Shown in pieces: positions 41,561 through 62,498 of a stretch of 64,000 bases of DNA (its first letter is position 1; each line of letters opens with the position of its first letter). Under the pieces are notes generated by a model that did no database searches, had not been told where the DNA came from, and saw only the letters and a list, made by a program, of their open reading frames with translations. The DNA comes from a virus. A program made the position numbers and the translations under genes. The stretch is taken from positions 62,001 to 126,000 of the IMG/VR virus record IMGVR_UViG_3300031524_001640. One strand, written 5' to 3'.

Positions 41561-44500
41561 TTATGAGTTCTGATTCCAATGCCCCATAATATTAGATACG
41601 TAAGTTTGTGTCTGTGTTGGCCATTGCGTGCCCTTATCTAGATGGTGCTGGAGAGCTCCCGGCCCCATATTGTAAGCGGCTAGTGCTAATGGCCAAGTAT
41701 GAAACTTATCATATAATTGCAACATATACGTTATACCACCCTGTATATTCTGTTCAGGAACATAAGGGTCTACATGTAAACCAGCAGCTGTACTTGGTAG
41801 TAATTGAAATAACCCTATAGCTTTCCCCCATTTAGTCATTGGACCTATAGCATTTGGGTTAAGAGTAGATTCTTGCTGTGCCTGAGCTATGGCTAAGTCT
41901 ACAGGCATCGCTTGGTTTTCGGGTCTAGCAGCTACTTTACGAATTAATGCTATGATTGCTTGTTTATCACTAGATATTTTAGATCGTGGTCTAGGTGAAA
42001 TAGGGGGAACAGGATTTGGTGTCATAGTTGGGTCCTGCAAAGATGGTGTTATGCTTTGTTTTATTTCCTGCCAAGTGCTCATTAATGGAGCTATTTCATC
42101 AGTATAAAATTGTATCCAATGATCCTTTAACCAATATACTATATCACCTGCTCGATATCCTTGTAAACCACCCACCCAAGGGTTACCAAATCTCATAAGT
42201 GGAAACACCATACATAGATTCATTCTTGTAGAGATATTTATAGCTGTAGCAAATGCCCTACCAGCAACCATTACTGCTACAACATCCCCTATAGGACCGC
42301 CAAAGATGGCTGCTGCCGTTCCACCAGCTACTACTCCCAGTAATGTTGGTGTAGTTACACCAATGGCCGTTGTAGCGTCTCCATAAGCTTGACTATACCC
42401 ATTTATTATCTGGGTCGCGTTAGCCCAAGCCCAACGATATCCATTCAATAACCCCATGGAAGCAGCATCATTAACTATTATCAACGCTCTAGGCTTAATA
42501 ATAGTAATAAACCCCATTTCCTGATTGAATGTGTGAATTACGGAGTCTACTTCTACGGGACCCATCATACCAGTTGCTGGGTCTGTTATAACTACAACAT
42601 CCCAAGGCTCAATTTCTGGTGTGCCTTTAATAATTAATTCACCATAATACATCTTTCCACATTCTTCTCTTAAGAAGCTCTGGATAGTTGCTAGACGCAT
42701 TGGCTCATTACCACCACTTTTTAAATTCTTATCCACAGACTCCACAAGCTCGTCAGCGTCTAATACCCGTTGGTGATGACTTGGTATCATCTCATTTATA
42801 CATAGAGTGTCATCAGATAACTTTATTGTATTGAAGAATTTATCAGATAATTTTATACCGTTGTGGATTATGGATTCGTGGTCTATGTAATTCCATCTAC
42901 GAACTGGTTGAATACGTAACGCCTCATTAACTTTACCGATAGTCCCGTTTATCTTTAGAGTTAAATAATATTCAAGTGAGTTACGAAGATAATTCACCTC
43001 TGTTCTAAAAGACTGCATCTGATAGTTTTGTACCCCTGGCCACCATGATAATAAATCGTTTCCAGTTCTGTTTATCATAGTATTTAGAGAGTCTAATTGT
43101 TGGAAATAAACATTAGGGTCTTTTGTACTATCTATCTTGTTCATAAATGTGTTTACATAAGTGTCCCCAGGCTGCACGCCGGGTAACACTGGTATGAGAT
43201 AGTTATATAGCATGGCTGCTGTTTGAGACCTACCTTGTTGGTGATCCCACCAATCTGCAAAGATAGGTTTAGCTACAGCAGGCTGTAGCTTCATTGCAGT
43301 AAGTTCCCCTAAGATTAAATCTCTAGAATAATAGAAATCATTAGGATGTCCAAATATACAAGTAGCATTTGCCTGATATGGGAACCCATATTGTCTAACT
43401 GCTAGAACGTAATCTGGGTACCTACGTCCTACATCTTTGATATAGAACCAAGGTGTGCGTGCTGTTCCCCCTTTAATATGATAAACAGGCTTTGTACAAC
43501 CGGGCTGTTCGAATGTCCAACTTCTAGTAACTGGGAACTTACCAACAACTTCTGTTCCACTATAATTAACCAAATGATTAACTAATATGTTAGCTCCAGA
43601 CCTATCATAACTATTATTAAGTGTCGAAGCAATTGGTCCAGTGCCTCCTAAGGCAGCAAGCGTGTCACTCCATGTAAACCCTTTTACATAACGATCAGGT
43701 AAACCACCAATCTGCCATTTTCCAAAATGTCTTGCCTGACTTATCTTAAGAATCGCTTTTATTACATTGGAAGCGTCACCATCCCCAGATAAATTCAGCC
43801 ATCCGCCGTAAGCTGGAGCTCTAACGTAAGTTAATCCCGCCCATAAATCACGAAATGCCATCATTGGCTGGAATTTAACTAGCCGTATAGCAGCGTCAGT
43901 AACACTATTAATTATGTTACCAACAAGACCGGGCACAGAAAAACCATCGCTGCTAACTTCGTCTGACATAGAGGTATCCAACTCAGTCAAATAGCTTTGA
44001 GCTACAAGAGTTATAATCCCGTCTTCTTCATCTATTTGTGTGACTTGTCCAACAAATACTGGGTATAACCCGTCTGGATTATTAGAATAACCAAGACGTA
44101 CTTGTATCTTTGATCCAGTTTGTAATGGGTAATACCGCAATGGCACCTTAGGTTGGTTTGTAACGAACGTTTCTCCGGGGGAGTTTAAACTACCTTGACC
44201 CTCTTGATAGTTATGATTGCCCATTCTACCAGCCATTACAGCACCCGGCATACCTCCTGGGTTAACCGTTGGTGACCCGTCAAGGGAAGTAGGGACCTTA
44301 ACATCATTGCTTAATTCCCATTCTCTCTTACCTTGTACAGAGTTATCGAATAATCTATATGACAACATACCAGATAGGTTTGTAATTCTTATCACAGCAG
44401 TATCAGGCTTGTCCCTATACTTAATCATTTCCATATCAATTACAGAGGCATAAGAATAGAAATTATCATAACAATAGAAAATACTAGTGTTCTTATCCTC

Positions 44501-46756
44501 CATAAGAAATAATTTGAATGTTGGGAAACATCCCCTCATACTATATTTTGGTATATTAGAACGTAGGAGCATACCAGAAACATTACCTTCTTGTATACCA
44601 AAATCTGAAAGATCAGTTGGTATTGTTGTTCCCTGACCCTGCTGATTTTTTGTATTAAAAGCTTTGAATCCAGTTAACATTACAGATAAATTCTGTTCCA
44701 TTTGCTGGGCAGCTGTTGTTAATAGCACATTGGAATAATCAATGAAATATTCAGCCGGGTCCCCATCATAAATCCCTAAGTCCCTATAACATCCATGTTT
44801 ACCATTAGATGGGTCAGACCCGGGACTATATAAACCTTGTGCTTGTGTCGATGAATCAAGAGAGTCTTTGAAAGATTTCGAACGAGCTATTTGATCCAAG
44901 TTATTCGACATTACTCGGTCATTTGCTGCCAATAGTTCAAATGCCTTCTGCCATATCTGATCTTTCATGGCTTGGGTTACTTGTGGGTCATATTTCTGTT
45001 GGATAGCTAAATCTGCTTGATACCTAGTTGGATCATTCTGACTAGACAAAGTATTTAGTCGTGTTAACACCCAATAGTCTGTATAAGACATTACGTATCC
45101 AGGGCTGTTCTTAGCGGCTAACCAAGGCCAATAACTGCTATCGAAGGGTGTACTACCATAACCAGCCGTTCCGGGCAGCCTACTTACAGTAGCACTTAAT
45201 GGGCTTTCTTCCTTAAGTGTTAAGAATAGATTAGCCTGCTCAGTAGGGGTCAACGATACCCCACTAGGCATTGGTATACTAGGCAATGTCTTTAAAGTAG
45301 ACGCTGTTGTTGGGTCTGTAGATAATAAAAGATTCGCTAAATATTTATCGTCGTAGCCATTCCAAGCGTTACGAAAAGCTACAAGCTTTTGCATTCCTGA
45401 TTGCTCAGCTTGAGTTAGCCCAGCAGTTAAGGCTGGGGACCTAATATAACTACTCAATTGTTGTGTATAATGGTCACTACCATATACAGTAAATGGATCT
45501 AATAACTCATAGTAGTTTTCATATTGTCTAGCCATGAGGGTACAAGATAATCTACCAGCAGAATTCTGTATAGTAGATACATCAAATTCTGCTACGTTAA
45601 GCCCCCATACTCCTAGCATATTAAGGAACTGATTACGAACTAGGATAGCCTGCCTATTATAAATACTAGCAGCAGATTTCCAAGAACGGAATTGTAAGAA
45701 TTGTTTCTTCAACTCATTTATCATTCCAGTTAAACCAGTTACCCCTAGGGATTCAGCGCTATCAGATTCCATACCCATAGAGATAACGGTAGTTGCTGGG
45801 CCTATATGTTGATATGTAGGATATTGATAATTAGCTAATGGTAATTGAGCAAACTGATTTACAAATACAACGGAGAGATTGGTAGGAAATAAGCCTTCCT
45901 CAGAGCTTGAGCCATCTGAAGAATCTAGATGTAATCTATTCTCCTTATATCTATAAGTCATATCATCTGTGAAATGGTCACACTTCCATTCATCAACATC
46001 TAAATCGCTTGGAGCAGCAACAGGGAGCCCTGGTTGTGGCATATAAGTCCGCCAAATAAAACTCGTATCTTCCGGGTCTTGCTCCTGCCATGGGCTGTAT
46101 TCCCCTTCTTGTGGAGCATCTAAATTATTTTCTTTCCATTCATTCAAATACTTCTTAAAAGCATCTGATTGAGTGGCGTCTACCGGCAAACCACCAGTGC
46201 CTACATAAGCGAAGTCTTTGGTAAATGGAAGATAATTAAATAATGTCATAACTAGTTGACACTTTAATCCATCTACTATATCCTCTGAAGTTGATACCTT
46301 AAATTGACGGAGAGCAAAAGCTAAACGAACATATTTAGTACTATCAGTAACAGCTATTCCTGAATATGAAGATTCGTCATTCCTCGATGAAATAACTGAA
46401 CGTACAAGATCATTCTCCACTTCTACAAATGGAGCAGCTTTCATCATAGCTACAATGGTGCGTACATCCTCCCATTGAGCCCAATGTGGGTCATCATTCT
46501 CTGAGAAACTTGGGGAATCAGAATAATTCTGAGGGTTTTCCTCATATACTGCTGTCCAAGATACCGTCACATCCCAACGAGCGAATCCACTTTCGTTTAT
46601 GTATGGGAACTTAGCTCTTAAAGCAGTAAGTTCGTCTACATTAGAGGTCTTATGGATATTAATATCCTCTGGTGGAATCTTTAATATCACATTTCCAATA
46701 CGAAAATAACCACTTTCTGGATCGTCTAGTTGTGGGTTACTAATTGTTATACTCAT
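41561..46756 (-). CDS. Giant baseplate hub with C-terminal lytic transglycosylase
   Basis: A 1731-aa protein. The final 140 residues form an SLT lytic transglycosylase: AIAQAQQESTLNPNAIG with catalytic E1629, KAIGLFQLLPSTAAGLHVDPY, NIQGGITYMLQLYDKF and LALAAYNMGPGAL. It cuts peptidoglycan glycan strands so the tail can reach the membrane. The middle (about 850-910: LQTGSKIQVRLGYS, PVFVGQVTQIDEEDG) is like the hub domains of gpD/gp44 proteins. The N-terminus is likely structural. About residues 1500-1550 include a hydrophobic Gly/Ala segment. Fusing hub and lysozyme in so long a chain is unusual. The ATG overlaps the previous stop. Confidence 0.8.
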   Translation of the reverse strand: MSITISNPQLDDPESGYFRIGNVILKIPPEDINIHKTSNVDELTALRAKFPYINESGFARWDVTVSWTAVYEENPQNYSDSPSFSENDDPHWAQWEDVRTIVAMMKAAPFVEVENDLVRSVISSRNDESSYSGIAVTDSTKYVRLAFALRQFKVSTSEDIVDGLKCQLVMTLFNYLPFTKDFAYVGTGGLPVDATQSDAFKKYLNEWKENNLDAPQEGEYSPWQEQDPEDTSFIWRTYMPQPGLPVAAPSDLDVDEWKCDHFTDDMTYRYKENRLHLDSSDGSSSEEGLFPTNLSVVFVNQFAQLPLANYQYPTYQHIGPATTVISMGMESDSAESLGVTGLTGMINELKKQFLQFRSWKSAASIYNRQAILVRNQFLNMLGVWGLNVAEFDVSTIQNSAGRLSCTLMARQYENYYELLDPFTVYGSDHYTQQLSSYIRSPALTAGLTQAEQSGMQKLVAFRNAWNGYDDKYLANLLLSTDPTTASTLKTLPSIPMPSGVSLTPTEQANLFLTLKEESPLSATVSRLPGTAGYGSTPFDSSYWPWLAAKNSPGYVMSYTDYWVLTRLNTLSSQNDPTRYQADLAIQQKYDPQVTQAMKDQIWQKAFELLAANDRVMSNNLDQIARSKSFKDSLDSSTQAQGLYSPGSDPSNGKHGCYRDLGIYDGDPAEYFIDYSNVLLTTAAQQMEQNLSVMLTGFKAFNTKNQQGQGTTIPTDLSDFGIQEGNVSGMLLRSNIPKYSMRGCFPTFKLFLMEDKNTSIFYCYDNFYSYASVIDMEMIKYRDKPDTAVIRITNLSGMLSYRLFDNSVQGKREWELSNDVKVPTSLDGSPTVNPGGMPGAVMAGRMGNHNYQEGQGSLNSPGETFVTNQPKVPLRYYPLQTGSKIQVRLGYSNNPDGLYPVFVGQVTQIDEEDGIITLVAQSYLTELDTSMSDEVSSDGFSVPGLVGNIINSVTDAAIRLVKFQPMMAFRDLWAGLTYVRAPAYGGWLNLSGDGDASNVIKAILKISQARHFGKWQIGGLPDRYVKGFTWSDTLAALGGTGPIASTLNNSYDRSGANILVNHLVNYSGTEVVGKFPVTRSWTFEQPGCTKPVYHIKGGTARTPWFYIKDVGRRYPDYVLAVRQYGFPYQANATCIFGHPNDFYYSRDLILGELTAMKLQPAVAKPIFADWWDHQQGRSQTAAMLYNYLIPVLPGVQPGDTYVNTFMNKIDSTKDPNVYFQQLDSLNTMINRTGNDLLSWWPGVQNYQMQSFRTEVNYLRNSLEYYLTLKINGTIGKVNEALRIQPVRRWNYIDHESIIHNGIKLSDKFFNTIKLSDDTLCINEMIPSHHQRVLDADELVESVDKNLKSGGNEPMRLATIQSFLREECGKMYYGELIIKGTPEIEPWDVVVITDPATGMMGPVEVDSVIHTFNQEMGFITIIKPRALIIVNDAASMGLLNGYRWAWANATQIINGYSQAYGDATTAIGVTTPTLLGVVAGGTAAAIFGGPIGDVVAVMVAGRAFATAINISTRMNLCMVFPLMRFGNPWVGGLQGYRAGDIVYWLKDHWIQFYTDEIAPLMSTWQEIKQSITPSLQDPTMTPNPVPPISPRPRSKISSDKQAIIALIRKVAARPENQAMPVDLAIAQAQQESTLNPNAIGPMTKWGKAIGLFQLLPSTAAGLHVDPYVPEQNIQGGITYMLQLYDKFHTWPLALAAYNMGPGALQHHLDKGTQWPTQTQTYVSNIMGHWNQNS

Positions 46757-49700
46757 TATTGTTCGTCTCTTATCTCTCTGATGCGTTCTCTATTTCTGAG
46801 ACTTCCTAACTTATTATTTACTTTATAATTAATCGTGGCGTTTACATCACCATTACTAGACATCATAGCAGCAGCTCTAGAATAGTCAGCACCTTGTCTA
46901 GCACTGTCAGTTACAATCGTAGCTTCTACGTTTGAGGTTCTATTCATTGGAGCCACCATTGTAGTTCTCACTCCTTTTTCTACATATCTAACTGATTTAG
47001 GAGGATTAGTTGGTGCCATAGACCCCGTAATTGGCTCTCCGGGTATTGCTCCGTCAGTTCCTATACGTTCTTCCGGTCTATGCCCACTTGGTCTAGACAT
47101 CTTAGCTGTTGCTAATTGCTTTGGATTCCTAGGTCTATTAAATAGTAAACCAGCCCCAGCAGCAATAGCTAAACCTACACCAAGAACTTTACCTGAATCT
47201 CCACGGAAGAGTTCGGTAACAGTTGAAGCGATAGATCTCATAGAAGCACCAGCCGCAGCTTTTGTATTGATAGTTCCTAAATCGGCTGCGCTACTCATAG
47301 CCATAAATGCTTTACGGAATGTTGGTGGAACACTAGCTTCTAACTTATTGTATATCTCTCTAGTAACTTTCTTTCCACCAGTAAGAACACCACTTGTTAT
47401 ATCTACCCAATTCTCAGTTTCTCTAGTGGCACCTTTCATTAAGTCTTCACTGGCTGTTATTCCTTCGGGCGTTTCTAACCATCTAGCAGCTGCATTAACT
47501 TTACCACCACCTTTTGCTATTTCTTCAGGAAGGGGTTGTGGAATATTAAATCTCTTTCCCATTACAGGATTCCAATCAACTGGAACTAGAATACCTTCCT
47601 TTAATACAGCCCGCCTTAACATTTCAGCACCTTGTTTTATACTACCTTCAGCGCCACTCGTGCCAAGTTTAAATGATTCCTTAACTTCATTTGCTATATT
47701 CATAGCCATTTGTTTATTGAACAAAGTCTGAGTCTTACGAGCATCAATAGGCGCTTGACGTAATCTTTTTGCTATATCTGTTAAATAATCACGCACTACC
47801 TCATTATTCTTAAATGCTGGAGATCTCTCTATGTGAGCTAACATTCTACCAGAAGCAAGGGATAACGTACCAGTAGCCTCTGCTGCAGACCTATTAGCTA
47901 CAGCGGCTTCTAGATTAGACATTAGCGCAAGTTTCTTAGCTAGTCTCTCAGCTAAGTCTTTTTGTACCGGATTTCTTACTGAGGCACTTTCGTCAGCTGA
48001 GCCCATTAACGCACGGAAGTTTTCTACTCTTCTAGCTTGTCTACCACCGGGTGCCATTACCCTTAGAGCTTCTGCTTCACCTGTTGAACCAGCAGCATAA
48101 TAATGTAGGTTGGCTGGATCAAGGTCATCATCAGCACCTATTAACATACGAACTATTTCATTGATACTAAAGAACTTGGTTCCTTTTAAATGTTTATCTT
48201 CTATTACTTTAACTGCAACCGCATCTCCATAAGGCTGGCGTCCGAGTAAAGCAGTGCCAAATCCTTGCTTTTCTATACCTTGTTGTATACTGGCGGGTAG
48301 CGCTTTTAATTCTTCTGAGGAGATACCTACTATGAAAGGTTCAGCGGTTCCTCCACGGGTCGTGATGTATCCAGATCTACCTAATGGATCATAGCTACGT
48401 GGTCTCCAAGCACTATTCTTCCCTGTTAATAGGTCATCGTGAATAGCATCTATTATTCCTTGGGTTGAACCGCCTTTTCGTTTAATACCCTCTATTAACG
48501 CGTCTCTAGCTTCGATATTACCAGCTTTTTCCTCGTTATAAATATTATGTAATTGATTTTGCCAGTCATGAGTTTGGTAACCTACGCCTTTCTCTTTATT
48601 ATATTCTGGGCTTATAGACATATAAGCATCAGTCCCCGGGACAGGTATGAACTGTGGTTTACCCTCTTTGTCTAGGTATTTTACTCTAAAGTTTTCCTTA
48701 TATCTTGAATCGGATGGATCAAATATAGTTCCATGACGCCCCTCAGGTCTTGATAGCTTTGCGCTACCTAAGAAAGCTTTATCTAAATCTACTACTACAT
48801 CTTCACTTTCACGCATAGGTTTGGTGTAATCATTATCTTGAAGATATTGACCGTATAGCATACTCATTTCTGGGTCGCCTTCGCCAACAGTTTGTAGGCG
48901 ATTCCGAAGCTCAGCAGCCATAACTCTCTTATCCCCTAGGTTTGAGAAAGTATCGTAATCATGAGTTACTGTGGCATGTTCTGGAAGATTAATATTAGCA
49001 TGAGCCCAAGTTCTAACGTTTACATTTACACCATTACGTAGCATATAAGCTTCAAGACTCTTACCTGCTTGTACGTCATCTGTTATACCACTACCTGTTT
49101 TATTATACCACCCTTGATAGACTTTATACCCAAGACCCTTCTTGCTTCTTATAGAAGCTGTAGCATCAGCCATAATCTTATCTATAACGCTGTTAAGTTC
49201 CTCCATATTAGCGATCTTAGCTTCTCTAGAGGCAAATTGCTTACGAATAAACTCGTGCTGGAAGATCATTTGTCCATCAGTATAGTCTACACCAACTTTA
49301 GCTAGTTGTTCTGTAGCAGAACTTATTAATTCTTCTCCAACAGCTTTATTTCGTGAACTTATATTATGTAGGGTATCCTCTGCTATAGACATACGAAGCA
49401 ACATTGGGTCCATCTTATTTTGAGCATAAGTCCAATCAGCAATACCGTTAACGGTATATTTATCTATTACATCTCCCGTTCTTGTTGTTTTTCTGAAATC
49501 ATTTATTGCTGAAAGCATAGTCTGGAAATTACCTTGATAGGTACCTGTATGGAATTCTCCCTTTACACCGAAAGTATCATGTTTCGCTGCGTCCATACCT
49601 TGATAATGTTCCATTATTATATGATAAGTAGACTCATCTGCAGCCTTGGTAGAAAGTATCTTTCCACCAGAATCAGGGCTCACAACTTTATTTTGTCTAG

Positions 49701-51681
49701 TACCAAATTTGAAATCATCTTCGACATCTTTACCAACCCAATCCTCAGGATTGAAATGCATCTGATCTACTTCATAAGTGGTCGTATACTTTAGTCTACC
49801 AGTCTTCGCTAGCGCGTCTGATATGATGATATCGGTCTCACCAAGGCTACCAATTTGTTCGAATATAGTAGCACCATACCCTAGTTTGGGCTTACCAAAT
49901 TTATCAAGCTTTGTCTTACTTCTATAGAAATGTTCTATGTCATTAAAAGCTTTTTCAGCTTTTGCTGGAGAGATATTCATTTCCATAGCTCGTTCTATAA
50001 ACAATGGCTTATAAGCTTGTGCTTCCTCCCAAGTCTTATACATACCAAAATCACCAAGGAGTGTCTTCTCTTGAGGAGAAATACCAGCAAGTCTCATATT
50101 GAATTCTGGTACTTCCTTGGTACCAAGGAACTCTTCATAAGCTGTAGTCGAGACCTTTGGTTTAAGATCTAGTCCATTCTTATTCTGTACGAATTCGTAC
50201 GATACACCTTTAGATAGAGAACGATAGTTCCAATCCTGCTTTGTTACGTCTGCCACTCCGCCCATAGCAAAATCTTCCATCTTACGCAATTGATAAACTC
50301 TATTACCCCAAGCAGACTCCGGCCCCATCATAGACACAGTTCCACTATTGATTAATTTCCTCTCGAAATCTGACTGAAATAGTGGGTCTAACTTTTCAAA
50401 GCTTACAGCCTCATCACCCATTTTGAATCTAGGTAGAGAAGTTAATACAGCAGCTTGTGATTTTAATCTAACCTGATTTTCTCCGGCGAAATTCTTGCCA
50501 AATCTAGATCCAGCTTGAGAGTATATCGCCTCTGTATCTGCTGGGTCGTGAGCTGTGAAGAATACAGCACGATTAATATCCCCCATCAATTGTTTTTCAG
50601 TATAGTCATTACCTTCGGTAACCATCTTAGCTACCCACTCATCAATACGATATATCTTTCCATCATAATCCATAACAGAGCGAGCTGTTCCTATGTATGG
50701 ACCAATACGAACAGCCCCATTAGCATCTGGAATAGGTATACGTATACTCTGTTCTACATCTTTCATTGTTCTGACAAAATCAATATAGGAAGCATCAGCG
50801 GTGCTGCCGTCTATAACTCCTTGAGAAACTAATTTTACCTGAAGGTTTAACTTATCAAGGTTAGACCTATTCTTTAGGATATTGCTAACTCCACCTGCTC
50901 CGGCATTACTCAATTTCTCTTCAATAGCCTCTGACCACGAGCCAACTTGTAAGTTAGTGACTACATCTGGTGGAAAGAAGGTGGCCCCTGCTGGTACAAA
51001 AGCACCTTGATCTACTAACCCTTCTATTCTATCCATATTACTTTGTAATCTTCTTGGGAATCTGGTATCTCCTCTGCCCTTGAAGAACTCAGCAATCTCT
51101 AACATTTTGTCGTCTGACATAGATACGTTGGTTCTATTATCTTTATCAAGCAACCCTTCTAGAACTTTTGGTGTACTAATCCAATCATAAGGCGTCATAG
51201 CATCCTGTGCTGAAGACACAACTGCTTGTGACATCATTCTTCTGTTCTGATCAGTTGCCTTAAGAAGACCTGTGGCTCTACTGTATAAGTTATTTATGTC
51301 TTCTATTGGTCGAGCCTTTGCTAATCCCATAGAATATCTAGCTTGAGCTTCTTCAACAGTTCGTATACCAACAGTACCATCCTCTGCAAGCTTAGATAAA
51401 TCAGAACCAACAATATTATGTGCTGTATTAAATATAGGATTCTTAGCAGTACTCATAGTAGCATGGAAAACAGACTCAGCTTCTGTCTTAGCCGTGCTGA
51501 ATAGCTTTGGTAACATCTCTGCCCCAGCGAACAGTATTGGGGTAGTAATCATCGCTGTCCTGAAATAGCCACGATCTTCGCTGTCATAGAAGAATGGGAC
51601 GATAGCAGAAGCTGCTAATACGCCATGATGACGTTTTATTAAGTTTGCAACAGACAGTACTGTAGAACTGATTATAGTCAT
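46756..51681 (-). CDS. Giant virion protein (1641 aa) with RNA-polymerase-barrel-like motifs
   Basis: A 1641-aa protein, probably inside the virion. N-terminal hydrophobic segments lie near 17-30 and 40-56, another near 1498-1515 (VLGVGLAIAAGAGLLF). The C-terminal tail (NATINYKVNN) resembles tape-measure ends. Residues 1090-1215 contain, in order, YDPLGRSGYIT (R1102), LLGRQPYG (R1148, P1150) and GADDDLDPANLHYY (D1184, D1186, D1188). Order and spacing resemble beta-prime GRSVIT, LNRAP and NADFDGDQMAVH of RNA polymerase, but the glycine in DFDGD is Leu here. It could be an ejected polymerase, a dead relative or chance. Otherwise unrecognised. Confidence 0.6.
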   Translation of the reverse strand: MTIISSTVLSVANLIKRHHGVLAASAIVPFFYDSEDRGYFRTAMITTPILFAGAEMLPKLFSTAKTEAESVFHATMSTAKNPIFNTAHNIVGSDLSKLAEDGTVGIRTVEEAQARYSMGLAKARPIEDINNLYSRATGLLKATDQNRRMMSQAVVSSAQDAMTPYDWISTPKVLEGLLDKDNRTNVSMSDDKMLEIAEFFKGRGDTRFPRRLQSNMDRIEGLVDQGAFVPAGATFFPPDVVTNLQVGSWSEAIEEKLSNAGAGGVSNILKNRSNLDKLNLQVKLVSQGVIDGSTADASYIDFVRTMKDVEQSIRIPIPDANGAVRIGPYIGTARSVMDYDGKIYRIDEWVAKMVTEGNDYTEKQLMGDINRAVFFTAHDPADTEAIYSQAGSRFGKNFAGENQVRLKSQAAVLTSLPRFKMGDEAVSFEKLDPLFQSDFERKLINSGTVSMMGPESAWGNRVYQLRKMEDFAMGGVADVTKQDWNYRSLSKGVSYEFVQNKNGLDLKPKVSTTAYEEFLGTKEVPEFNMRLAGISPQEKTLLGDFGMYKTWEEAQAYKPLFIERAMEMNISPAKAEKAFNDIEHFYRSKTKLDKFGKPKLGYGATIFEQIGSLGETDIIISDALAKTGRLKYTTTYEVDQMHFNPEDWVGKDVEDDFKFGTRQNKVVSPDSGGKILSTKAADESTYHIIMEHYQGMDAAKHDTFGVKGEFHTGTYQGNFQTMLSAINDFRKTTRTGDVIDKYTVNGIADWTYAQNKMDPMLLRMSIAEDTLHNISSRNKAVGEELISSATEQLAKVGVDYTDGQMIFQHEFIRKQFASREAKIANMEELNSVIDKIMADATASIRSKKGLGYKVYQGWYNKTGSGITDDVQAGKSLEAYMLRNGVNVNVRTWAHANINLPEHATVTHDYDTFSNLGDKRVMAAELRNRLQTVGEGDPEMSMLYGQYLQDNDYTKPMRESEDVVVDLDKAFLGSAKLSRPEGRHGTIFDPSDSRYKENFRVKYLDKEGKPQFIPVPGTDAYMSISPEYNKEKGVGYQTHDWQNQLHNIYNEEKAGNIEARDALIEGIKRKGGSTQGIIDAIHDDLLTGKNSAWRPRSYDPLGRSGYITTRGGTAEPFIVGISSEELKALPASIQQGIEKQGFGTALLGRQPYGDAVAVKVIEDKHLKGTKFFSINEIVRMLIGADDDLDPANLHYYAAGSTGEAEALRVMAPGGRQARRVENFRALMGSADESASVRNPVQKDLAERLAKKLALMSNLEAAVANRSAAEATGTLSLASGRMLAHIERSPAFKNNEVVRDYLTDIAKRLRQAPIDARKTQTLFNKQMAMNIANEVKESFKLGTSGAEGSIKQGAEMLRRAVLKEGILVPVDWNPVMGKRFNIPQPLPEEIAKGGGKVNAAARWLETPEGITASEDLMKGATRETENWVDITSGVLTGGKKVTREIYNKLEASVPPTFRKAFMAMSSAADLGTINTKAAAGASMRSIASTVTELFRGDSGKVLGVGLAIAAGAGLLFNRPRNPKQLATAKMSRPSGHRPEERIGTDGAIPGEPITGSMAPTNPPKSVRYVEKGVRTTMVAPMNRTSNVEATIVTDSARQGADYSRAAAMMSSNGDVNATINYKVNNKLGSLRNRERIREIRDEQ

Positions 51682-52150: not shown

Positions 52151-53215
52151 CTAAGCCTCTATTTCAAGACATTCTGGTAGCTTATCTATTATTTCACAAG
52201 GAATTTTATCAAAGTATAGGGAACCGTTTCTAACTGAAACTCTTACAACATCACCAAGATTAATCTGTGAGCTAAGAAGCATACTACTAATAGGAACCAC
52301 AATGTTCTTTTCTAATACTCGTCTTAATTCTCTAGCGCCGTACTCTGTGCTTATACCTAATCCTAGTAAGTAGTCTTCAGCCTGTTTATCCAAGATTATG
52401 ACAAACTTCCGAAGATTATTAGAATTTAATATTCGTCTCTGTATATGATCTACTTCTATGCGAAGAATCTGTCTAATCTGTTCTTCTTTTAGGCTCTTAA
52501 AAACGATAACTTTATCTAGACGATTAATGAATTCTGGTGAAAAGTCCTTACGCATGGCGTTTACAGCAACATCACAAAGCTTTATATCTAACTTTGTATC
52601 TTCCTTACCAGTATCAAACCCCATAGGTTTAATCAAATTTCTCATTGATCTAGCACCTACGTTAGATGTCATAAATATTATACTACTGGTAAAATCTACG
52701 TCTATTCCACTACTTATACGTAGTATGCCTTTATCCATTACTCCTAGTAAAAGCTCTCTAAAAGACTGGTGTGCTTTCTCAAGCTCATCGAATAAAACAA
52801 CTGATAACTTTACATCTTTGGTATGACATTTATTTAATCGTTCTTGAGTTATAAATGGAATTGATTCTTTATGTCCCACATATCCGGGAGGAGACCCAGT
52901 GAGTTTAGCGATATCGTGTGATTGCTGAAACTCGGCACAGTTAATTTTAATACAAGACGAGTCACTATCTAGAAGAACTTCTGTTACTACTTCCACCAAT
53001 CTTGTCTTTCCAACGCCGGTGGGTCCTAGAAATAATACATTAGCAATTGGTTTGTTGGGGGCTTGTAAGCCGGCCATATAAGTACCAATTACCTCAGTTA
53101 CTTTCTTAATAGCGTCTTCTTGTCCAATTACATTCTTTAGAAGATTGTTCTCAAATTCGATAGCATCTCCACATCGTAGATCAGGATCCAGCGTTACCGC
53201 TTTGGCTGGTTTCAT
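52151..53215 (-). CDS. ClpB/ClpA-like AAA+ unfoldase (single D2-type module)
   Basis: A 354-aa ATPase equal to the second (D2) module of Clp/Hsp100 proteins. Features in order: VIGQEDAIKKV, Walker A GPTGVGKT at 64-71, LTGSPPGYVGH with the pore-loop GYVG at 111-114, Walker B VVLFDELEKAH with D143-E144, sensor-1 MTSNVGA, SPEFINRLD with the arginine finger R232, and the lid GISTEYGARELRRVLEK. No N domain, D1 or ClpB middle coil is present, so it is shorter than bacterial ClpB. It would thread or refold proteins. Its position between two giant virion genes suggests that it helps assemble or unfold them. Confidence 0.85.
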   Translation of the reverse strand: MKPAKAVTLDPDLRCGDAIEFENNLLKNVIGQEDAIKKVTEVIGTYMAGLQAPNKPIANVLFLGPTGVGKTRLVEVVTEVLLDSDSSCIKINCAEFQQSHDIAKLTGSPPGYVGHKESIPFITQERLNKCHTKDVKLSVVLFDELEKAHQSFRELLLGVMDKGILRISSGIDVDFTSSIIFMTSNVGARSMRNLIKPMGFDTGKEDTKLDIKLCDVAVNAMRKDFSPEFINRLDKVIVFKSLKEEQIRQILRIEVDHIQRRILNSNNLRKFVIILDKQAEDYLLGLGISTEYGARELRRVLEKNIVVPISSMLLSSQINLGDVVRVSVRNGSLYFDKIPCEIIDKLPECLEIEA

Positions 53216-53229
53216 TTACCCTCCCGGGA

Positions 53230-56200
53230 CTAATCATAATTCTCCGGATTACGTCGCATATCTTTTAGCAACTCTTCAGTCTGATCCACGTTTACATTAA
53301 TGGTAGCGCTACCCCTACTATCTTGAGATGGGTGACCACTAGTGAAAGGGTTAGCATTAGGATTCTTAGCTGCTAGCATAAGTCGCTCAACTTGTCTTCT
53401 AATCTGTTCTTCCGAACGATCGTTTCCAGACGTTAACTCTTGTACTGCACCATCTACATAAGGTTTACGCCAAAGTAATGAAGCTCTATCATCAAATATA
53501 TTGAAGTCATGGTAATCACGACCTTCCATCTCTATAATCTTTAGCTTTACGTCTTCATAATCAATGTTTGGGTCCCATAACGCTGAATCTGATTCAGGAA
53601 CTGATAATCCAGTCTTCGCGAAGAAATCAGATATCTCTAAGGACCTTTCATAATCACCATAATCGAGCTTTGTTGTTGCTTTCTTGAAACGATCAAGACC
53701 TTCTTTATTCACAAGGCGACCACCAGAGAACTGTATATTAGTCTCCTTGCCTTCAGACTCTGCTATCTGTGCCTCTTTACCAGCCCACTGAGCTTCTAAA
53801 GCTCTAGCCATTTCATCTGGCACCACATCTAGTATCTTCTGTCTTTCCTCATCGTCAGTAGAATTTACAAATTCTTTGAAGTATCTAGTATCACGATCAG
53901 GCAGTGTGGAGCCTAGGAAAGTGGTGGACCCAGTAAGATTTGCACCTATAGCTGTCCTACTAGCCTTACTAGTATACCTGCCACGACTCTCAGAGTCGGT
54001 AGAAGCTAAATTCAAATCTCGTAGATAATCTAACATATCTACCATAGTATTTAAATTCCGCTTTTCTACTGTTGCCTCTGGAATAAATACTTCTCCGCTT
54101 ACCCTATGTAATAGCCCATGGTAATACGGAGCCAAGAAGTCTTTAATCGGCTTATCCCACCTACGCATACGAGTTCCGACAGTTTCTTGATCTACGTACT
54201 GAGCTAGCGCTGAACGTTCTTGCCACAGCTTGGTATGATAAGGTGTAGGTAACCATCTAAGGGGGTTCCACCAAGGTGCTTCTTCAGCGAATGAGGCTTC
54301 TTCTGCGTACCTTCCTAGTAATCTTTCTGCTGGATTGAACATAGCTTGCCATTCAGCCCCAGCAGAAGCTTTATCGTAGGTACCGTAACCCTCACCAACT
54401 ATAGCTTTATTGATGTTTAATCCATCTATTTCTAATACAGATCGTATATTAGTTTCTTTATCTAAAGCCCCTTTCTGGAAAGTAGCCGTTACTTTTGTGC
54501 CAGCAGTGAAAGTATCTGATAAGAATTTATCTAGCTCAGCTCTTCTTACATCTATTTCCTTAGCAGCATCCTCCTTCGTCATATCATTATATTGTGATAA
54601 TACAACGGCAGACATATCTGCAGCAGTAGTAGAAACGCCGCTCATTCTAAATATACGACCCGGATATTCATTTAACTCTACACCAGCTGAGCCTAGAGCT
54701 TTTACTGTTCCAGTGGTTTCTTCTACATCCTTTGAGAACCTCTGCTCCTCTGTCCGAATAACTGATTTGCGCATCTTATTAGCGCGAGCCATAATACTCT
54801 CATACTCAGCTAAACTTTCTGTATCTCCTCTGATGTCCTTCCTAACCTTTCCTTTGAAGATAGCAAACTCTCTAGAATATGGTGCTACATCCCCTAAGAT
54901 ACGTAATTTCTCCATATCTGGGTAATCCTCTGGACTGACACCTTCTAGTTCTGGGTGTAGAGCTGCATAACCCTCACCCGGCAGACGAGCGAATCCAGTT
55001 GAAATCTTTACATAAGGGTCACCTGTTCTGAAGTTAATAAAATAATCCTCTCCAGGAAGCCAAGAAGGCATTTTATTCTTAATACTATTAGCCTGAAGTA
55101 ACTTTCCTTCGTTCTGTACGAAACGACGGAAAGGTTCAGAATATCCAAATAATTCAAAGTCAGGACTTACACCAGATACAGCACCTAGTTCTAGCTCGTA
55201 GTATTTACGACTATAATTAGTCATTTGTCGGGAACCTTGGAACTTTACATTCTCACCCATAGATCCATATCCAGGGAAAGTTTTATTCCATAAGCTACGC
55301 CCGATAAAGCCCGGCAATCCAACGAATTCAGTAGCAGCTTTAATTGATCTTTGAGCTGTGTCACCTAAAGAGAATTCTGATGTTGGTTCTGCTGCTGGTA
55401 ATGCTTTAGGACCTCTCGGTTCTAGACGAGTTGACCCTAATGTATAGTCAGTTGTATCCCACTCTGGATGCATCTTCCTGATTGGTTTTACAATTTGACC
55501 AATAGTAGAAGCTAATAGTGGTCCTACTAATGGAACATTAGTAAACGCAGGTGAAGTCTCTGGGTATGGCCTATCCTCATAATGCTTTTCTTCTAGGAAA
55601 TAAGGATCTCTTAACCAGCGTAATGGATGAAGTATCGGGTTATGTCTCCAGTACTCTTTCTCTGATCCATATAAAGCCTTCTTCTCTGCTTGTGCGCGCC
55701 ATAGAACAGACCAGTGTGGGCGATACTCCTTTACACGACCACCTTCTAACGCTGTGGTTCCCATATCCCACCAGCGACCAGCTTTTATTTCTACTGGATC
55801 CTCACCAGAGTATGTCCGTTGTAGTTCTTCCTTTGTTTTCCTAGACCCAATCATCCCCGGAATGAAGGGAAGCATTAGCGCTAGTCCAATAGCTACACCA
55901 ACAGCACCCTTATTCTCACGGTTTAGGATACCTAAGATTGACTTTTGTCCGGGGGCGGAGAAGAATTTACTTCCTGAACGAAGTAACTCTGCTGCTTTTT
56001 CTCCCTTTGTGTATCTAGTTCTTAATACATTAGAGTATTGAAGTACCCCACCAACAAAGGCTCCAGATACTGGTAAGGCTAATGGACCGTACTGTGGACC
56101 GGGTACAATCTGTTCATATTTATCTGTTACACCACGCAGAAAATGATCAGTAAGGGAAGCATGGGCTAATCTAAAGCGCTGGAACGTATCTAATGCTATA

Positions 56201-58206
56201 CCGCTTAAAGAATGGCCAGTTTTATAATCTATGTAAGGAAGGGCTAATCCAACTAATAGAGCTGCTGGAGCGAATCTCTTAGTAAGAAGCTGGTTAACTA
56301 AACCACCCTCACCTATTATAGGGACGTGAAAAGCTTTATTCCACGTACCTTCTTTTAATCCTAACCCTATATCAGATAATAATCTCTGTACACGTTCGGC
56401 TTGACTAAGAGCTGTTCTATTAGCAGTTTCGGCGAAATTAAATAATTTGCCTCTACTCTTTATATTAACTAGATATGGTTGGAAGACACCTTCTACTTCT
56501 TCGCCAACACTGATAGCACCTTTATAACCAGTTGGTTCTTGTGAATGACGAAGGCGACCAAAGTTCTTTGTAATAGTTTCCCAAGGAGTACTCTCTTTTA
56601 GGAAAGTTACAGGAACATTTTCAAGAGGTTTGTTGTATCTATAACTAGAACTAGATAGACTTCCACGCTTTGTAAAACGGGCACGGACGTCTCCTCCGTA
56701 TCCCTCAAGTTCCATATAAGGACCATAATCAGTCCTTATAAAATTCAACCCTTTTTGGGAACGTAAATCTACATTAGAACCAGTAAATAGGCGATCAAAA
56801 TGTTCACCTAACTCAGTATATTTACCACCCTGTCCTACTAATTCACTATAACCAACGTGTAATTTACTAGGAGTAGTATAAGAACTTATGTATTGACTAA
56901 TACCAAAAGTTCTACCAATTTTAAATGGGCTGTAATCTTCTAATGTACTTACAAAGCTGTGTAGTTTATCTACAGAGAAAGGTCCTTTTCCTGGAACGAT
57001 AACCTTACGGAAATAGGAATACCCTGCTGCAGCAAAGCCAGCTGCGCCAAGAGCTTTATAATTTAAGCTACTATTATCTTCTCCTAGTCCGTGCCATCCA
57101 GAACCAAACGAGGTGTGTTTGTGTCTGGAATCCTTGGCTTTACCATTATCTGATAAACCAACAATAGTAGTCTGTCTAGAGGATCTGGTACTGAATGCTA
57201 AGCCCGCTGCTATTGCAGCGGCGGCTCCTGCTAGTAAAGCAAACCCATTTAGTGGTCTTATGTCACCGATAACTTCTGTTACTTCTTTTATAGAAGATGC
57301 TTCGGTTCTCCAAGCACCATACATCGCTTTGATGTGCTCTAGAGTCAGACCGTTTGTAATTACAGCCTCGTATATCATTCTCTCTAATGCTACATCTGCG
57401 GCTGCACGATGAAGTTCTTCTCCAAGACCTAGCATTCTAGCTATCTTAGAAGCTTTCCAACCCGGAACGTTCTTTAAATCTTCAGAACTCTTAAGTTCTA
57501 ATGTAAGATCAAATGTTCTGGCACGAGCCTTATCTGTAAGATGACGCATTAAGTCAGGATTCTGCGAAGCATGCGTCCATACTTGTTTAAACAACTCGTC
57601 TTCTAAGCTTACAAACTGTATCTTATTAGTAGCATAGGCTTTATCAAAGAATTCTACATATTTATTTAGAGAGGAGTATCTAGCTGCAGAGGCTTTAAGA
57701 GAAGCAATGTCATATTTTACATTCCATCCAGCAAGCTGAATAGGACCACCAGCTTTTATAGATTTTCCTTGCACAGCTTGGAAGAGTCTTCTTAGCTGTT
57801 GCTCCTCTGTAAGAGTGGCGTACTTTAAAGCATCTGCTGCAATGTCATTAGAAAACTTGTCTAAGAATATAGGAAATTCAACATTCTTAACGATATCTCT
57901 ATAAGGTAGGATATGATTCTTATCTAGGAATAGTTTTGTATAACCAGAACCTTTCTTATATACCTTAGATCCATCAGCAGAAAATTTCCTATATGCCTTA
58001 GATTCTTCAATATGCATCTGAAGGATTTGGTTATTAACAAAGGCAGTAGAAAAAGCTGAAGTGCCGTAAGCACCTTCTTTGGAAGCTTCGAAGATCCCTC
58101 TGATAGAAAACTTTCCTTCTAGACGATTGAGCTCTTCCCAATTAGTGTGGGAGGTTTCAATATCTAGGATAAACATATTCTTCTTAGGCTTCCGTGCTTT
58201 TGCCAT
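53230..58206 (-). CDS. Giant tape-measure-like virion protein with N-terminal DEDDh exonuclease domain
   Basis: A 1658-aa protein after the chaperone-like genes, where tape measures lie. Residues 10-290 form a DnaQ-type exonuclease: FILDIETS (D15, E17), AGWNVKYDIASL (N162, D166), ELHRAAADVALERMIYEA (H266, D271): all five DEDDh residues. Hydrophobic segments follow near 321-340, 385-400, 675-690, 745-765 and 795-815. Residues 1160-1285 resemble a staphylococcal nuclease (RIFRMSGVSTTAA with R1184/R1187, TNIRSVLEIDG with R1255, LNINKAIVGEGYGTY), but the catalytic DTPE reads STTA. The C-terminus (SATINVNV) is tape-measure-like. It probably sets tail length and is ejected with the DNA. Confidence 0.7.
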   Translation of the reverse strand: MAKARKPKKNMFILDIETSHTNWEELNRLEGKFSIRGIFEASKEGAYGTSAFSTAFVNNQILQMHIEESKAYRKFSADGSKVYKKGSGYTKLFLDKNHILPYRDIVKNVEFPIFLDKFSNDIAADALKYATLTEEQQLRRLFQAVQGKSIKAGGPIQLAGWNVKYDIASLKASAARYSSLNKYVEFFDKAYATNKIQFVSLEDELFKQVWTHASQNPDLMRHLTDKARARTFDLTLELKSSEDLKNVPGWKASKIARMLGLGEELHRAAADVALERMIYEAVITNGLTLEHIKAMYGAWRTEASSIKEVTEVIGDIRPLNGFALLAGAAAAIAAGLAFSTRSSRQTTIVGLSDNGKAKDSRHKHTSFGSGWHGLGEDNSSLNYKALGAAGFAAAGYSYFRKVIVPGKGPFSVDKLHSFVSTLEDYSPFKIGRTFGISQYISSYTTPSKLHVGYSELVGQGGKYTELGEHFDRLFTGSNVDLRSQKGLNFIRTDYGPYMELEGYGGDVRARFTKRGSLSSSSYRYNKPLENVPVTFLKESTPWETITKNFGRLRHSQEPTGYKGAISVGEEVEGVFQPYLVNIKSRGKLFNFAETANRTALSQAERVQRLLSDIGLGLKEGTWNKAFHVPIIGEGGLVNQLLTKRFAPAALLVGLALPYIDYKTGHSLSGIALDTFQRFRLAHASLTDHFLRGVTDKYEQIVPGPQYGPLALPVSGAFVGGVLQYSNVLRTRYTKGEKAAELLRSGSKFFSAPGQKSILGILNRENKGAVGVAIGLALMLPFIPGMIGSRKTKEELQRTYSGEDPVEIKAGRWWDMGTTALEGGRVKEYRPHWSVLWRAQAEKKALYGSEKEYWRHNPILHPLRWLRDPYFLEEKHYEDRPYPETSPAFTNVPLVGPLLASTIGQIVKPIRKMHPEWDTTDYTLGSTRLEPRGPKALPAAEPTSEFSLGDTAQRSIKAATEFVGLPGFIGRSLWNKTFPGYGSMGENVKFQGSRQMTNYSRKYYELELGAVSGVSPDFELFGYSEPFRRFVQNEGKLLQANSIKNKMPSWLPGEDYFINFRTGDPYVKISTGFARLPGEGYAALHPELEGVSPEDYPDMEKLRILGDVAPYSREFAIFKGKVRKDIRGDTESLAEYESIMARANKMRKSVIRTEEQRFSKDVEETTGTVKALGSAGVELNEYPGRIFRMSGVSTTAADMSAVVLSQYNDMTKEDAAKEIDVRRAELDKFLSDTFTAGTKVTATFQKGALDKETNIRSVLEIDGLNINKAIVGEGYGTYDKASAGAEWQAMFNPAERLLGRYAEEASFAEEAPWWNPLRWLPTPYHTKLWQERSALAQYVDQETVGTRMRRWDKPIKDFLAPYYHGLLHRVSGEVFIPEATVEKRNLNTMVDMLDYLRDLNLASTDSESRGRYTSKASRTAIGANLTGSTTFLGSTLPDRDTRYFKEFVNSTDDEERQKILDVVPDEMARALEAQWAGKEAQIAESEGKETNIQFSGGRLVNKEGLDRFKKATTKLDYGDYERSLEISDFFAKTGLSVPESDSALWDPNIDYEDVKLKIIEMEGRDYHDFNIFDDRASLLWRKPYVDGAVQELTSGNDRSEEQIRRQVERLMLAAKNPNANPFTSGHPSQDSRGSATINVNVDQTEELLKDMRRNPENYD

Positions 58207-58727
58207 TACTTTTTCCTTCTATTTCTATGTAATGCTTCTCTTTTAACATCTTCTGGAATTGATGGGGCTTTAACTTCATTAGGGTTATTTGGTTCTGCTA
58301 GCCGGCCCAATACCTTCTCTGCTCTTGCTAACATATCAAAGAAAGTTATTGGATCCCAATCTTCCATTTCTTCGAATCTATATTTAAATGCTGCAGCTAT
58401 CAAGCACTTCGCTGTTTCTAGATAACTAGATTCTAATCTCTGTCTAGATAAATATAATTGACCTTTTATATCATCATAGGTACCATTGAATGGGTTAGTA
58501 CTTAGCTGTTGTATAGCAACGTATGCTACTATTCCCGCTGGCACAAATTGTGGGAGTGGCCCATCTAGCATCACTAGTTTGTATACATCTAAATAAGCCC
58601 CCATAGGATAAGAAAACCTAGAAGAGGCTCCTAGGTATGATGGTTCTATTCTACGATATTCTGCCCAAGTTAGGTTGCGCCACTTGACAGTATAGCCGTC
58701 AGGCCATGTCGCTTGATAAATAATCAT
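58206..58727 (-). CDS. Tail assembly chaperone-like protein 2
   Basis: A 173-aa helical protein (YLGASSRFSYPMGAYLDVYKLVM; ETAKCLIAAAFKYRF) with a basic tail (DVKREALHRNRRKK). Just before a tape-measure-like gene myophages usually encode two chaperones that coat the tape measure; this gene and 58814-59302 have the expected sizes and order. They are not joined by an evident frameshift: an 86-base gap with a hairpin separates them. Its ATG is separated from the giant gene by a one-base stop/start overlap. Assignment is by position. Confidence 0.5.
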   Translation of the reverse strand: MIIYQATWPDGYTVKWRNLTWAEYRRIEPSYLGASSRFSYPMGAYLDVYKLVMLDGPLPQFVPAGIVAYVAIQQLSTNPFNGTYDDIKGQLYLSRQRLESSYLETAKCLIAAAFKYRFEEMEDWDPITFFDMLARAEKVLGRLAEPNNPNEVKAPSIPEDVKREALHRNRRKK

Positions 58728-58813: not shown

Positions 58814-59302
58814 CTACAACTCAGCAGACAAAACTTCAAAAGCAGTTGGATCCATAAAATCAGACAACCAACTTATGAGATTGAATAGTGTACTTGGTAG
58901 GCCAGCAGAACCAGTACGTAACATCTCAGCAGTCATCTTTCCATCTGACGCAGCATTAGTCCATAAAATACAATGAGCAGCGATTAACAGCTGTAATTCA
59001 AATTCTACCTTAGCTGCTTGTTGTTCTTGTGAAAGGTTTGCTCCTAGATTGGTGGGGATTGAGCTTTGAATGCGTTGTAGTTCCATTGCCCCAACGGCCC
59101 TTACAATGAATACACGCTTACCACCATCTGGGGTAAACACTCTCAATCTGTTATTAGGGGTTTGTGTCTTCCAAGTTTCGATTTGAACCTTACTTGGGGA
59201 TCCATTAATAGTTGCTAGGAACTCGTAAGGATCTGAAAACTTCTTTTGTGTTGCGGCTTCGTTAGCCTCAACAATGTTGTCGACTACATCTACGTCGCTC
59301 AT
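58814..59302 (-). CDS. Tail assembly chaperone-like protein 1
   Basis: A 162-aa soluble protein: an N-terminal acidic stretch (MSDVDVVDNIVEANEAA), a beta segment (LRVFTPDGGKRVFIVRAV) and a helical C-terminal half (AKVEFELQLLIAAHCILWTNA). Size and location fit the first tail chaperone before the tape measure. GGAGATC before the ATG is a good ribosome-binding site. Family not directly recognised. Confidence 0.5.
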   Translation of the reverse strand: MSDVDVVDNIVEANEAATQKKFSDPYEFLATINGSPSKVQIETWKTQTPNNRLRVFTPDGGKRVFIVRAVGAMELQRIQSSIPTNLGANLSQEQQAAKVEFELQLLIAAHCILWTNAASDGKMTAEMLRTGSAGLPSTLFNLISWLSDFMDPTAFEVLSAEL

Positions 59303-61787: not shown

Positions 61788-62498
61788 TTAGCCCCCAACT
61801 AGGTTTTCAAACGGAGTCTGAACGGCAGCCCATGGTTCAACTAAGCGGGCTACAAATGTTGCTTGCATCTCGGTTACGGCGTCGTCGATAGACACACCAG
61901 AACCTTCATTAAGAATTTCTACACCGAAGATTCTCATTCCACTAGCAGCACCCATTTCATTGTTAGCTACTAGAGTGATATCAAATGGCAGAATTTGGTC
62001 TGAATACCAAGGCGAAGCTAGAGATTTTAAAGCTGATACAGATGTAATTGGAACTGAATCCAAAGCATCGATTGTAGACGCAGCAGAATTAGCAATTCCC
62101 CCGGTGTTAATCGTACGGACTAACGCTTGATTAAAGATAGCTGTCTGATTCAACAAGCTGGTAGACGCAGTGCTATACTGAGGACGAATGTCTTCAGAGT
62201 TAGCAACGAACATTCCATTCGCTTGATAGAAAACGTTCAGCAAAGCGTGACGATCGAAATTAACCCAGATCAAGCTTCCAGCGATACCACGCTTGTTGCG
62301 ACTGAATGCTCTTGGATCTGGGGATCCCATCGTATAGATAGGAGCCTTTTCGCGAGTCACACTATAAGAAACCGCCTGGAGTTCTGCGAACTGATACGTG
62401 CCGATACAGGCCATAATATCAGAACCAGAAAATGAATTATAAGACCTGGATATTTCTGATTCTAATGGACCACCAGGTAGTGTTGATGCTGTTGACAT
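61788..62498 (-). CDS. Tail tube protein candidate
   Basis: A 236-aa protein, the best candidate for the main tail tube. The segment IMACIGTYQFAELQAVSYSVTREKAPIYTMGSPDPRAFSRNKRGIAGSLIWVNFDRHALL fits a pattern typical of large-phage tube proteins; the end (FGVEILNEGSGVSIDDAVTEMQATFVARLVEPWA) is a beta-rich interface. Order sheath, small protein, tube fits contractile tails. Good RBS (GGAGAAAC) before the ATG. Confidence 0.65.
   Translation of the reverse strand: MSTASTLPGGPLESEISRSYNSFSGSDIMACIGTYQFAELQAVSYSVTREKAPIYTMGSPDPRAFSRNKRGIAGSLIWVNFDRHALLNVFYQANGMFVANSEDIRPQYSTASTSLLNQTAIFNQALVRTINTGGIANSAASTIDALDSVPITSVSALKSLASPWYSDQILPFDITLVANNEMGAASGMRIFGVEILNEGSGVSIDDAVTEMQATFVARLVEPWAAVQTPFENLVGG

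Follow-up and report, generated by a model that had tools for sequence, protein, structure and literature searches.

The exonuclease domain at the N-terminus of a giant tail protein

The stretch of DNA analysed here (the window) comprises 64,000 nucleotides, positions 62,001 to 126,000 of the IMG/VR virus record IMGVR_UViG_3300031524_001640 (142,806 bases; G000), and carries a tail module on its minus strand in which one gene encodes a giant protein of 1658 amino acids (aa) with the motifs of a DEDDh exonuclease at its front (Table 1). The open reading frame (ORF) is genuine: its start ATG shares bases with the stop codon of the gene before it (TAATG) and an AGGA-like site lies just 5' of it; therefore, provided that this start is used, the motif region is the true N-terminus of the protein. 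A first-pass annotation of the window had read FILDIETS, AGWNVKYD and HRAAADVA as the catalytic set of a DnaQ-type 3'-5' exonuclease at the front of a tape-measure-like protein. The three motifs were found where it had placed them, and D15, E17, D166, H266 and D271 were confirmed in the 1658-aa ORF. An IMG/VR record of 215,291 bases carries an identical 1658-aa protein, and a diverged form of the same fusion was found in contigs from five other IMG/VR data sets.

Table 1 Features of the tail module in the window, with the evidence for each assignment
Feature	Position	Strand	Basis
1658-aa giant protein, gp145-position homologue with N-terminal exonuclease	53230..58206	-	tblastn to ME3, MTATph1, KLEB27-3; alignment
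DEDDh exonuclease domain, residues ~11-290 (1-300 taken as domain)	57337..58176	-	A6 alignment, AF2 model, VIA-align
Exo I, codons of D15 and E17 (FILDIETS)	58156..58164	-	D and E in 20/20 A6 rows; strand 11-19 of the model
Exo II, N162-D166 (AGWNVKYD)	57709..57723	-	N and D in 20/20 rows; strand 156-160, helix 163-174
Exo III, H266-D271 (HRAAAD), DEDDh type	57394..57411	-	H in 20/20, D in 19/20 rows; helix 268-284
Hydrophobic segment, residues 318-341, candidate membrane helix right after the exonuclease domain	57184..57255	-	Hydropathy alone; seen in each of the four lineages that bear the exonuclease
Conserved linker (residues 342-374) that follows the helix, R..RQT.I.GL...G.....RH..T.FGSG[WY].GL	57085..57183	-	FGSG motif search
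173-aa gene, tail-assembly chaperone position, just upstream of the giant gene	58206..58727	-	Position relative to ME3_33/34 and the two-gene chaperonin of 0305phi8-36
162-aa gene, second chaperone-position gene	58814..59302	-	Position
AAA+ ATPase	52151..53215	-	ClpB second-domain-like: PF07724 1e-32, ClpB_D2-small 1.7e-15
1641-aa protein, tape-measure (gp146) position	46756..51681	-	Gene order
1731-aa protein, endolysin-like PHROG matches	41561..46756	-	PHROGs

Related loci (L numbers) were gathered by scans with protein alignments and clustered at 90% into 73 representatives. For folding and for profile searches an alignment of 20 rows (A6) was used, comprising 4 rows of the giant protein and 16 of the neighbouring tail protein described below; it omits the near-copies L111, L108 and L063, the partial L034, and L004, and the choice of rows was steered by trial alignments. 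Alignment A5 was dropped because the second strand of the giant protein was aligned inconsistently, and A6, without L034, was folded instead. In A6 the six motif columns (D15, E17, N162, D166, H266 and D271) align without anchoring, the sole exception being a gap in L030 at D271. The catalytic residues D15, E17, D166, H266 and D271 are intact in all four lineages that carry the domain on the giant protein (the window, L008, L089 and L090), at a pairwise identity of 21.5-24.5% in the domain and 44.0-47.7% in the core of the protein (73% and 84% for L089/L090). Motif scans covered 3336 ORFs of at least 100 aa from 111 loci, near-copies counted, with two motif expressions that had both been devised after family members had been seen. 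The DEDDh expression was found in 28 ORFs, every one of them the giant protein or its neighbour, with no match in 20 shuffles or in reversed ORFs; a looser expression was found in 34 ORFs, again in these two proteins only, against a mean of 0.3 in shuffled ORFs and 1 in reversed ORFs. Neither G000 nor its 215,291-base relative contains another RNase_T-family match, and a match located elsewhere was found in two of the seven records searched; since a second RNase_T-family match is missing from the phage records, there is no visible sign that the domain was duplicated from a phage replication gene.

Profile and fold comparison

The A6 profile found DnaQ (8h18, E 3.8e-8), DEDDh (8fyc, E 5.4e-8) and Cas2-DEDDh (8fy9, E 1.2e-7) entries as its best matches in the PDB, followed by RNase T and others; among the best 60 of the 102 matches there was one plainly unrelated entry, a dynein regulatory protein at E 0.14. 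A profile of giant-protein rows only (A4) had two unrelated entries at the top and RNase T (2f96) in third place, at E 0.33, its Exo I and Exo II motifs being in register. The reference set for the DEDDh type consisted of RNase_T-family ORFs, 18 in all, taken from related phages and from genomes of bacteria; the first eight had been picked by motif, and two (L133 and L144) were badly trimmed. A four-row profile of the giant protein ranked RNase_T-family ORFs at places 1-9 of 153, with a best E of 4.4e-5. Conversely, a neighbour-protein profile without any giant-protein row, run over the 3336 ORFs, ranked the L008-group giant protein directly behind the neighbours themselves (E 0.0034), followed by that of the window (E 0.22). 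In profile-profile comparison the giant-protein rows, taken as aligned within A6 beside the neighbour rows, gave p 3.1e-7 against the neighbour domain (0.36 when reversed) and 2.6e-5 against the DEDDh proteins (0.73 when reversed).

Structure prediction with AlphaFold2 (AF2) on A6 yielded a model with a predicted local distance difference test score (pLDDT) of 68.0 and a predicted template modelling score (pTM) of 0.65, in which strands and helices follow each other in DnaQ order. VIA-align, run on 337 chains supplied by Foldseek, aligned 138-168 residues of this model at Z 11.0-9.3 and a root-mean-square deviation of 2.8-4.8; the 50 entries listed are all DEDD exonucleases or polymerases aligned via their exonuclease domain. 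Of the computational checks that the first-pass annotation had suggested, structure prediction bore it out, with alignment to DEDD exonuclease domains throughout the 50 entries listed, and the profile search did so in part: a single-sequence search of Pfam (RNase_T) gave no match, and the A6 profile against the PDB was headed by DnaQ 8h18. The curated cut-off of RNase_T (PF00929) is not passed by the domain of the window, L008, L089 or L090, which is a limit of one family model, so the domain is filed under the DEDDh superfamily and not under PF00929. tblastn of residues 1-290 against phages gave no match at E 10, and single-protein scans of viral contigs returned identical or near copies only. 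In sum, motifs, profiles and predicted fold agree that the first 300 residues of the 1658-aa protein are a DEDDh (DnaQ/RNase T-type) 3'-5' exonuclease domain with intact catalytic residues, and 3'-5' exonuclease activity would be expected of it.

The carrier is a homologue of the gp145-position protein of 0305phi8-36

The identity of the carrier was approached by tblastn of the 1658-aa protein against 50,697 phage records. Four records matched, over residues 672-1360: Moorella phage MTATph1, Acinetobacter phage ME3 (present as two records) and Bacillus phage KLEB27-3; the core had an E of 1e-47 to ME3_35 and of 7e-25 to MTATph1. ME3_35 is annotated as virion structural protein with homology to the Bacillus phage 0305phi8-36 virion structural protein YP_001429636, ME3_37 with homology to the 0305phi8-36 hub YP_001429638, and the KLEB27-3 homologue as structural protein. 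According to the 0305phi8-36 study, the tape measure is assigned to orf146, the hub is gp147, and split chaperonin genes 143/144 lie one gene away from the tape measure (PMC2147016). Counting from the accession numbers, with YP_001429638 taken as gp147, gives the number gp145 for YP_001429636. By its core and by gene order the 1658-aa protein is thus a homologue of the gp145-position virion structural protein of 0305phi8-36, and not the counterpart of orf146; it does lie, as a tape-measure gene would, directly downstream of the tail chaperone-position genes. The label tape measure, which the first-pass annotation had given to the 1658-aa gene, is therefore probably wrong, and by gene order the tape measure would be the next large protein, of 1641 aa. 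The idea of a tape measure with an exonuclease nevertheless holds for relatives, in which the domain sits on the gene at the tape-measure position.

jackhmmer found homologues of the 1641-aa protein only within the window clade (6 of 67 neighbour proteins), which would fit a fast-changing tape measure, short of proof. No exonuclease domain was found in it with the A6 profile at E 0.01. A tape-measure call by residue composition and hydropathy was abandoned because the two large proteins were not separated, and a literature search for the tail lengths of ME3, MTATph1 and KLEB27-3, meant to decide the tape measure, gave none. In KLEB27-3 the giant gene (L004, 9118-16271) is annotated as two pieces, gp031 and gp033, with gp032 between them, as if interrupted by an insertion.

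A DEDDh domain on the neighbouring tape-measure-position protein

When the 18-ORF RNase_T-family profile was run over all ORFs of the loci, its best match was not the giant protein but the tape-measure-position protein of other phages (L096, L033, L035 and others; E 1.8e-6 for L033). A profile built from these neighbour proteins found 22 ORFs at E < 1e-3. With the A6 profile (E <=0.01) the domain was found on the neighbour protein in 19 of the 67 representatives with a visible neighbour gene, most of which had helped to build that profile (L002, L004 and L104 had not), and L107 is a twentieth by motif. The named phages among them are KLEB27-3 (gp034) and MTATph1 (CDS0027), which were also the only matches when the phage collection was searched with four neighbour domains as queries. 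The neighbour domain lies at about residues 80-500, except in MTATph1 (about 859-1085), and a hydrophobic helix beside it was seen in none of 16 proteins examined. The profile comparisons suggest common descent of the giant-protein and neighbour-protein domains.

The domain was found on both proteins at once in none of the 73 representatives. This was given no weight as a sign of one function, since with 4 and 19 of 73 a complete lack of overlap is expected by chance in roughly one case in four, and the rows share ancestry. In L090 the giant protein and the tape-measure-position protein are separated by an extra ORF of 1005 aa (14802); the positional rule chose this ORF, the neighbour-protein homologue is the later 1727-aa ORF, and the domain is in neither. 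The neighbour protein of L103 (2682 aa) has no detectable exonuclease, unlike the others above 2,200 aa, and may be too diverged.

Occurrence of the domain, the candidate helix and the linker

On the giant protein the domain is borne by 4 of the 73 representatives. N-terminal DEDDh motifs recur in the group L007/L008/L014 (more than 99% alike where compared), in L089 and in L090, and the protein starts past the domain in L009/L012/L013/L015/L091, L011, L027, L092 and the record G007. In the core tree, which took 67 of the 73 representatives, the window clade comprises 8 rows with a support of 100/100, and within it L008, with the domain, is sister to L015, without it (100/98); label statistics for this tree, which disregard rows without a label, were set aside. 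The simplest account of this pattern would be a gain in the ancestor of the clade followed by repeated loss. Between L089 and L090 the ratio of nonsynonymous to synonymous substitution rates (dN/dS) is 0.105 in the exonuclease region and 0.069 in the core, the synonymous rate (dS) of 1.87 in the exonuclease region being near saturation. A recent exchange of the exonuclease module between L008 and L014, with synonymous change far below that of the core, was considered and rejected: the locus scan showed the reverse, a background of about 99-100% identity with a diverged stretch within the 3' half of the gene. Over most of the 24.8-kb locus L008 and L014 are about 99-100% identical, but towards the 3' end of the giant gene, in its second half (12001-14700 of L008), they differ by 2-10%, which looks like internal recombination; they differ again near the end of the locus.

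In each of the four lineages the domain is directly followed by the candidate membrane helix, and this by the linker. The FGSG motif of the linker was found in 11 of the 3336 ORFs, every one an exonuclease-bearing copy of the giant protein, and in none of the four exonuclease-less representatives of the clade. Domain, candidate helix and linker thus occur together in 4 of the 8 representatives of the window clade, which is every exonuclease-bearing lineage.

Other genes of the tail module

Family searches gave no informative match for the 173-aa gene and no match above any cut-off for the 162-aa gene; both are placed by position. Among the chaperone-position genes of L011 (8755-9345) and L021 (6875-7516) there are ORFs that look by eye like homing-type endonucleases (HNH-like and GIY-YIG-like). 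The AAA+ ATPase gene sits between the two giant tail genes and is followed by a 133-aa gene before the 1641-aa gene. A similar ATPase gene also lies 3' of the giant gene in L011 (13868-14953), a locus without the exonuclease; therefore, ATPase and exonuclease are not linked in occurrence.

Proposed role of the tail-built exonuclease

Since the core is annotated as virion protein in relatives and the gene lies beside the tape-measure gene, we infer that the enzyme forms part of the tail. The candidate membrane helix and the linker connect the exonuclease to a gp145-like protein, a structural component of a long contractile tail; the presence of the enzyme in the virion is deduced from the annotation of the relatives. 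During genome entry it would leave with the tail contents. The helix would keep it at the inner membrane, and in the first moments of infection it could trim nucleic acid at the entry site that is single-stranded or frayed. Substrates might be nucleic acids of the host or of its defences, or the termini of the genome as it enters. The DEDDh domain of the neighbouring tape-measure-position protein would play the same part in related phages. According to the SNIPE study, the tape measure of phage lambda helps the genome across the inner membrane and comes close to the inner-membrane defence nuclease SNIPE at injection (PMC13190303); an enzyme on a tail-lumen protein would therefore be rightly placed. 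For this sequence of events, a DEDDh exonuclease that is built into the tail, leaves with its contents, is held at the membrane and trims nucleic acid there, we consider the balance of probabilities to be even. More tentatively, and with the chances rather against it, the proposal may be widened to a whole lineage of jumbo phages that carry a tail-built DEDDh exonuclease either on the tape-measure-position protein or, in the window clade, on the protein next to it, there with a membrane helix of its own; it would be among the first enzymes into the cell and, held at the entry pore, would clear nucleic acids harmful to the entering genome, as a tail-borne counterpart of the host nucleases at the injection site.

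Several observations weigh against this proposal, some of them already at the level of the domain. The window protein and its first 310 residues had no exonuclease match in Pfam, NCBIfam or PHROGs, L008, L089 and L090 were likewise without a Pfam match, and phmmer of the window protein against the PDB gave nothing up to E 10. When the giant-protein rows were aligned separately, Exo III was misaligned and the profile-profile p values were 0.0018 (26 columns) against the neighbour domain and 0.0038 against the DEDDh proteins. The better AF2 model leans on the 16 neighbour-protein rows; the first model, from A4 (5 rows), was dropped at a pLDDT of 46.4 with meaningless Foldseek matches. Foldseek alone was weak with the better model too, with a best E of 0.64 (RNase T 3nh1), cytochrome P450 reductases intermixed and no match at 0.001; against BFVD the best E was 0.048 for an RNase H-like fragment, followed by a DEDDh protein at 0.11. 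This BFVD match, A0A8S5RKK9, is a 1009-aa fragment named YprB ribonuclease H-like from virus sp. ctEQ64, which could belong to the neighbour-protein kind. As to the role, half of the window-clade representatives (4 of 8) and record G007 are without the domain, the candidate membrane helix rests on hydropathy, and a folded domain of such size may not fit into the tail lumen. Packaging, injection and catalysis are predictions for every member of the family.

Of the alternatives, a role in assembly or packaging fares best, unlikely as we hold it to be. The exonuclease would act inside the infected cell while tails or virions are being assembled, and would be at most a passenger of the virion; it might, for instance, trim a genome end that protrudes at head-tail joining, or nucleic acid that has got into the tail. 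The overlap of the giant-gene start with the stop of the chaperone-position gene, by which translation of the two is probably coupled, would agree with this, as would the finding that in all cases found the domain is on one of two adjacent tail-module proteins; however, nothing specific favours assembly, and the patchy presence among close relatives fits an optional function better. That same pattern of presence and absence resembles an accessory conflict gene, and the fold neighbours of the domain include RNase T, a TREX1 homologue and Cap18, so that a function in counter-defence only may be considered: the injected enzyme would degrade signals or products of defence systems (single-stranded DNA of retrons, oligonucleotides, cut ends) and not nucleic acid generally. 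The present data do not single this out from trimming at the entry site, and we regard it as distinctly doubtful. Lower still is the probability that the exonuclease fold serves as a non-catalytic module, structural or for binding nucleic acid; evolution is faster in the domain than in the core and its activity is a prediction, but the window, L008, L089 and L090 have all retained the five catalytic residues, which structure alone would not demand. A mere look-alike of the motifs in a long protein, as the negative single-sequence and curated-family searches might suggest, is hardly tenable in view of the motif controls, the profile-profile comparison with its reversed controls, the PDB profile search and the fold comparison.

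Comparison with known systems

Searches of the open literature, without subscription journals and preprints, gave no paper that describes, in its title or the opening of its abstract, an exonuclease carried by a tape measure or another tail protein. The sole passage on an exonuclease domain in the excerpts of PMC7824862 concerns DNA polymerases, and those of PMC10684548 mention mosaic tape measures with no exonuclease on them. DEDDh enzymes and enzyme domains of tail proteins are already known; their combination seems to be new. It offers a testable biochemical activity for the gp145- and tape-measure-position proteins of a large jumbo-phage lineage, which are mostly annotated as structural or hypothetical, and a catalytic domain that sits on either member of a pair of adjacent tail genes. 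Should virions contain the enzyme, a direct test would become possible of whether a phage brings its own nuclease to the membrane at injection, where at least one host nuclease, SNIPE, attacks (PMC13190303).

With the DEDDh exonucleases DnaQ epsilon, RNase T, ExoI and TREX the domain shares the order of Exo I (DxE), Exo II (N..(F/Y)D) and Exo III (HxxxxD), but it has more than 100 extra residues between Exo I and Exo II, has no curated family match and is fused to a giant virion structural protein. The gp145-position proteins ME3_35, MTATph1 CDS0026 and KLEB27-3 gp031/gp033 have a homologous core and occupy the same slot between chaperone-position and tape-measure-position genes; unlike the window protein, they are without the exonuclease domain and the FGSG linker. 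The tape-measure-position DEDDh proteins (KLEB27-3 gp034, MTATph1 CDS0027, L033, L100 and others) have the same type of exonuclease and the same catalytic columns, on the adjacent tail gene. Cell-wall hydrolases are a known case of enzyme domains carried by proteins of the tail lumen, and studies of T5 and phiIPLA35 reportedly describe tape measures with cell-wall enzyme domains. Those and the protein described here would have in common an enzyme on a tail-lumen protein, but theirs cuts the cell wall, whereas the one in the window is a predicted nuclease.

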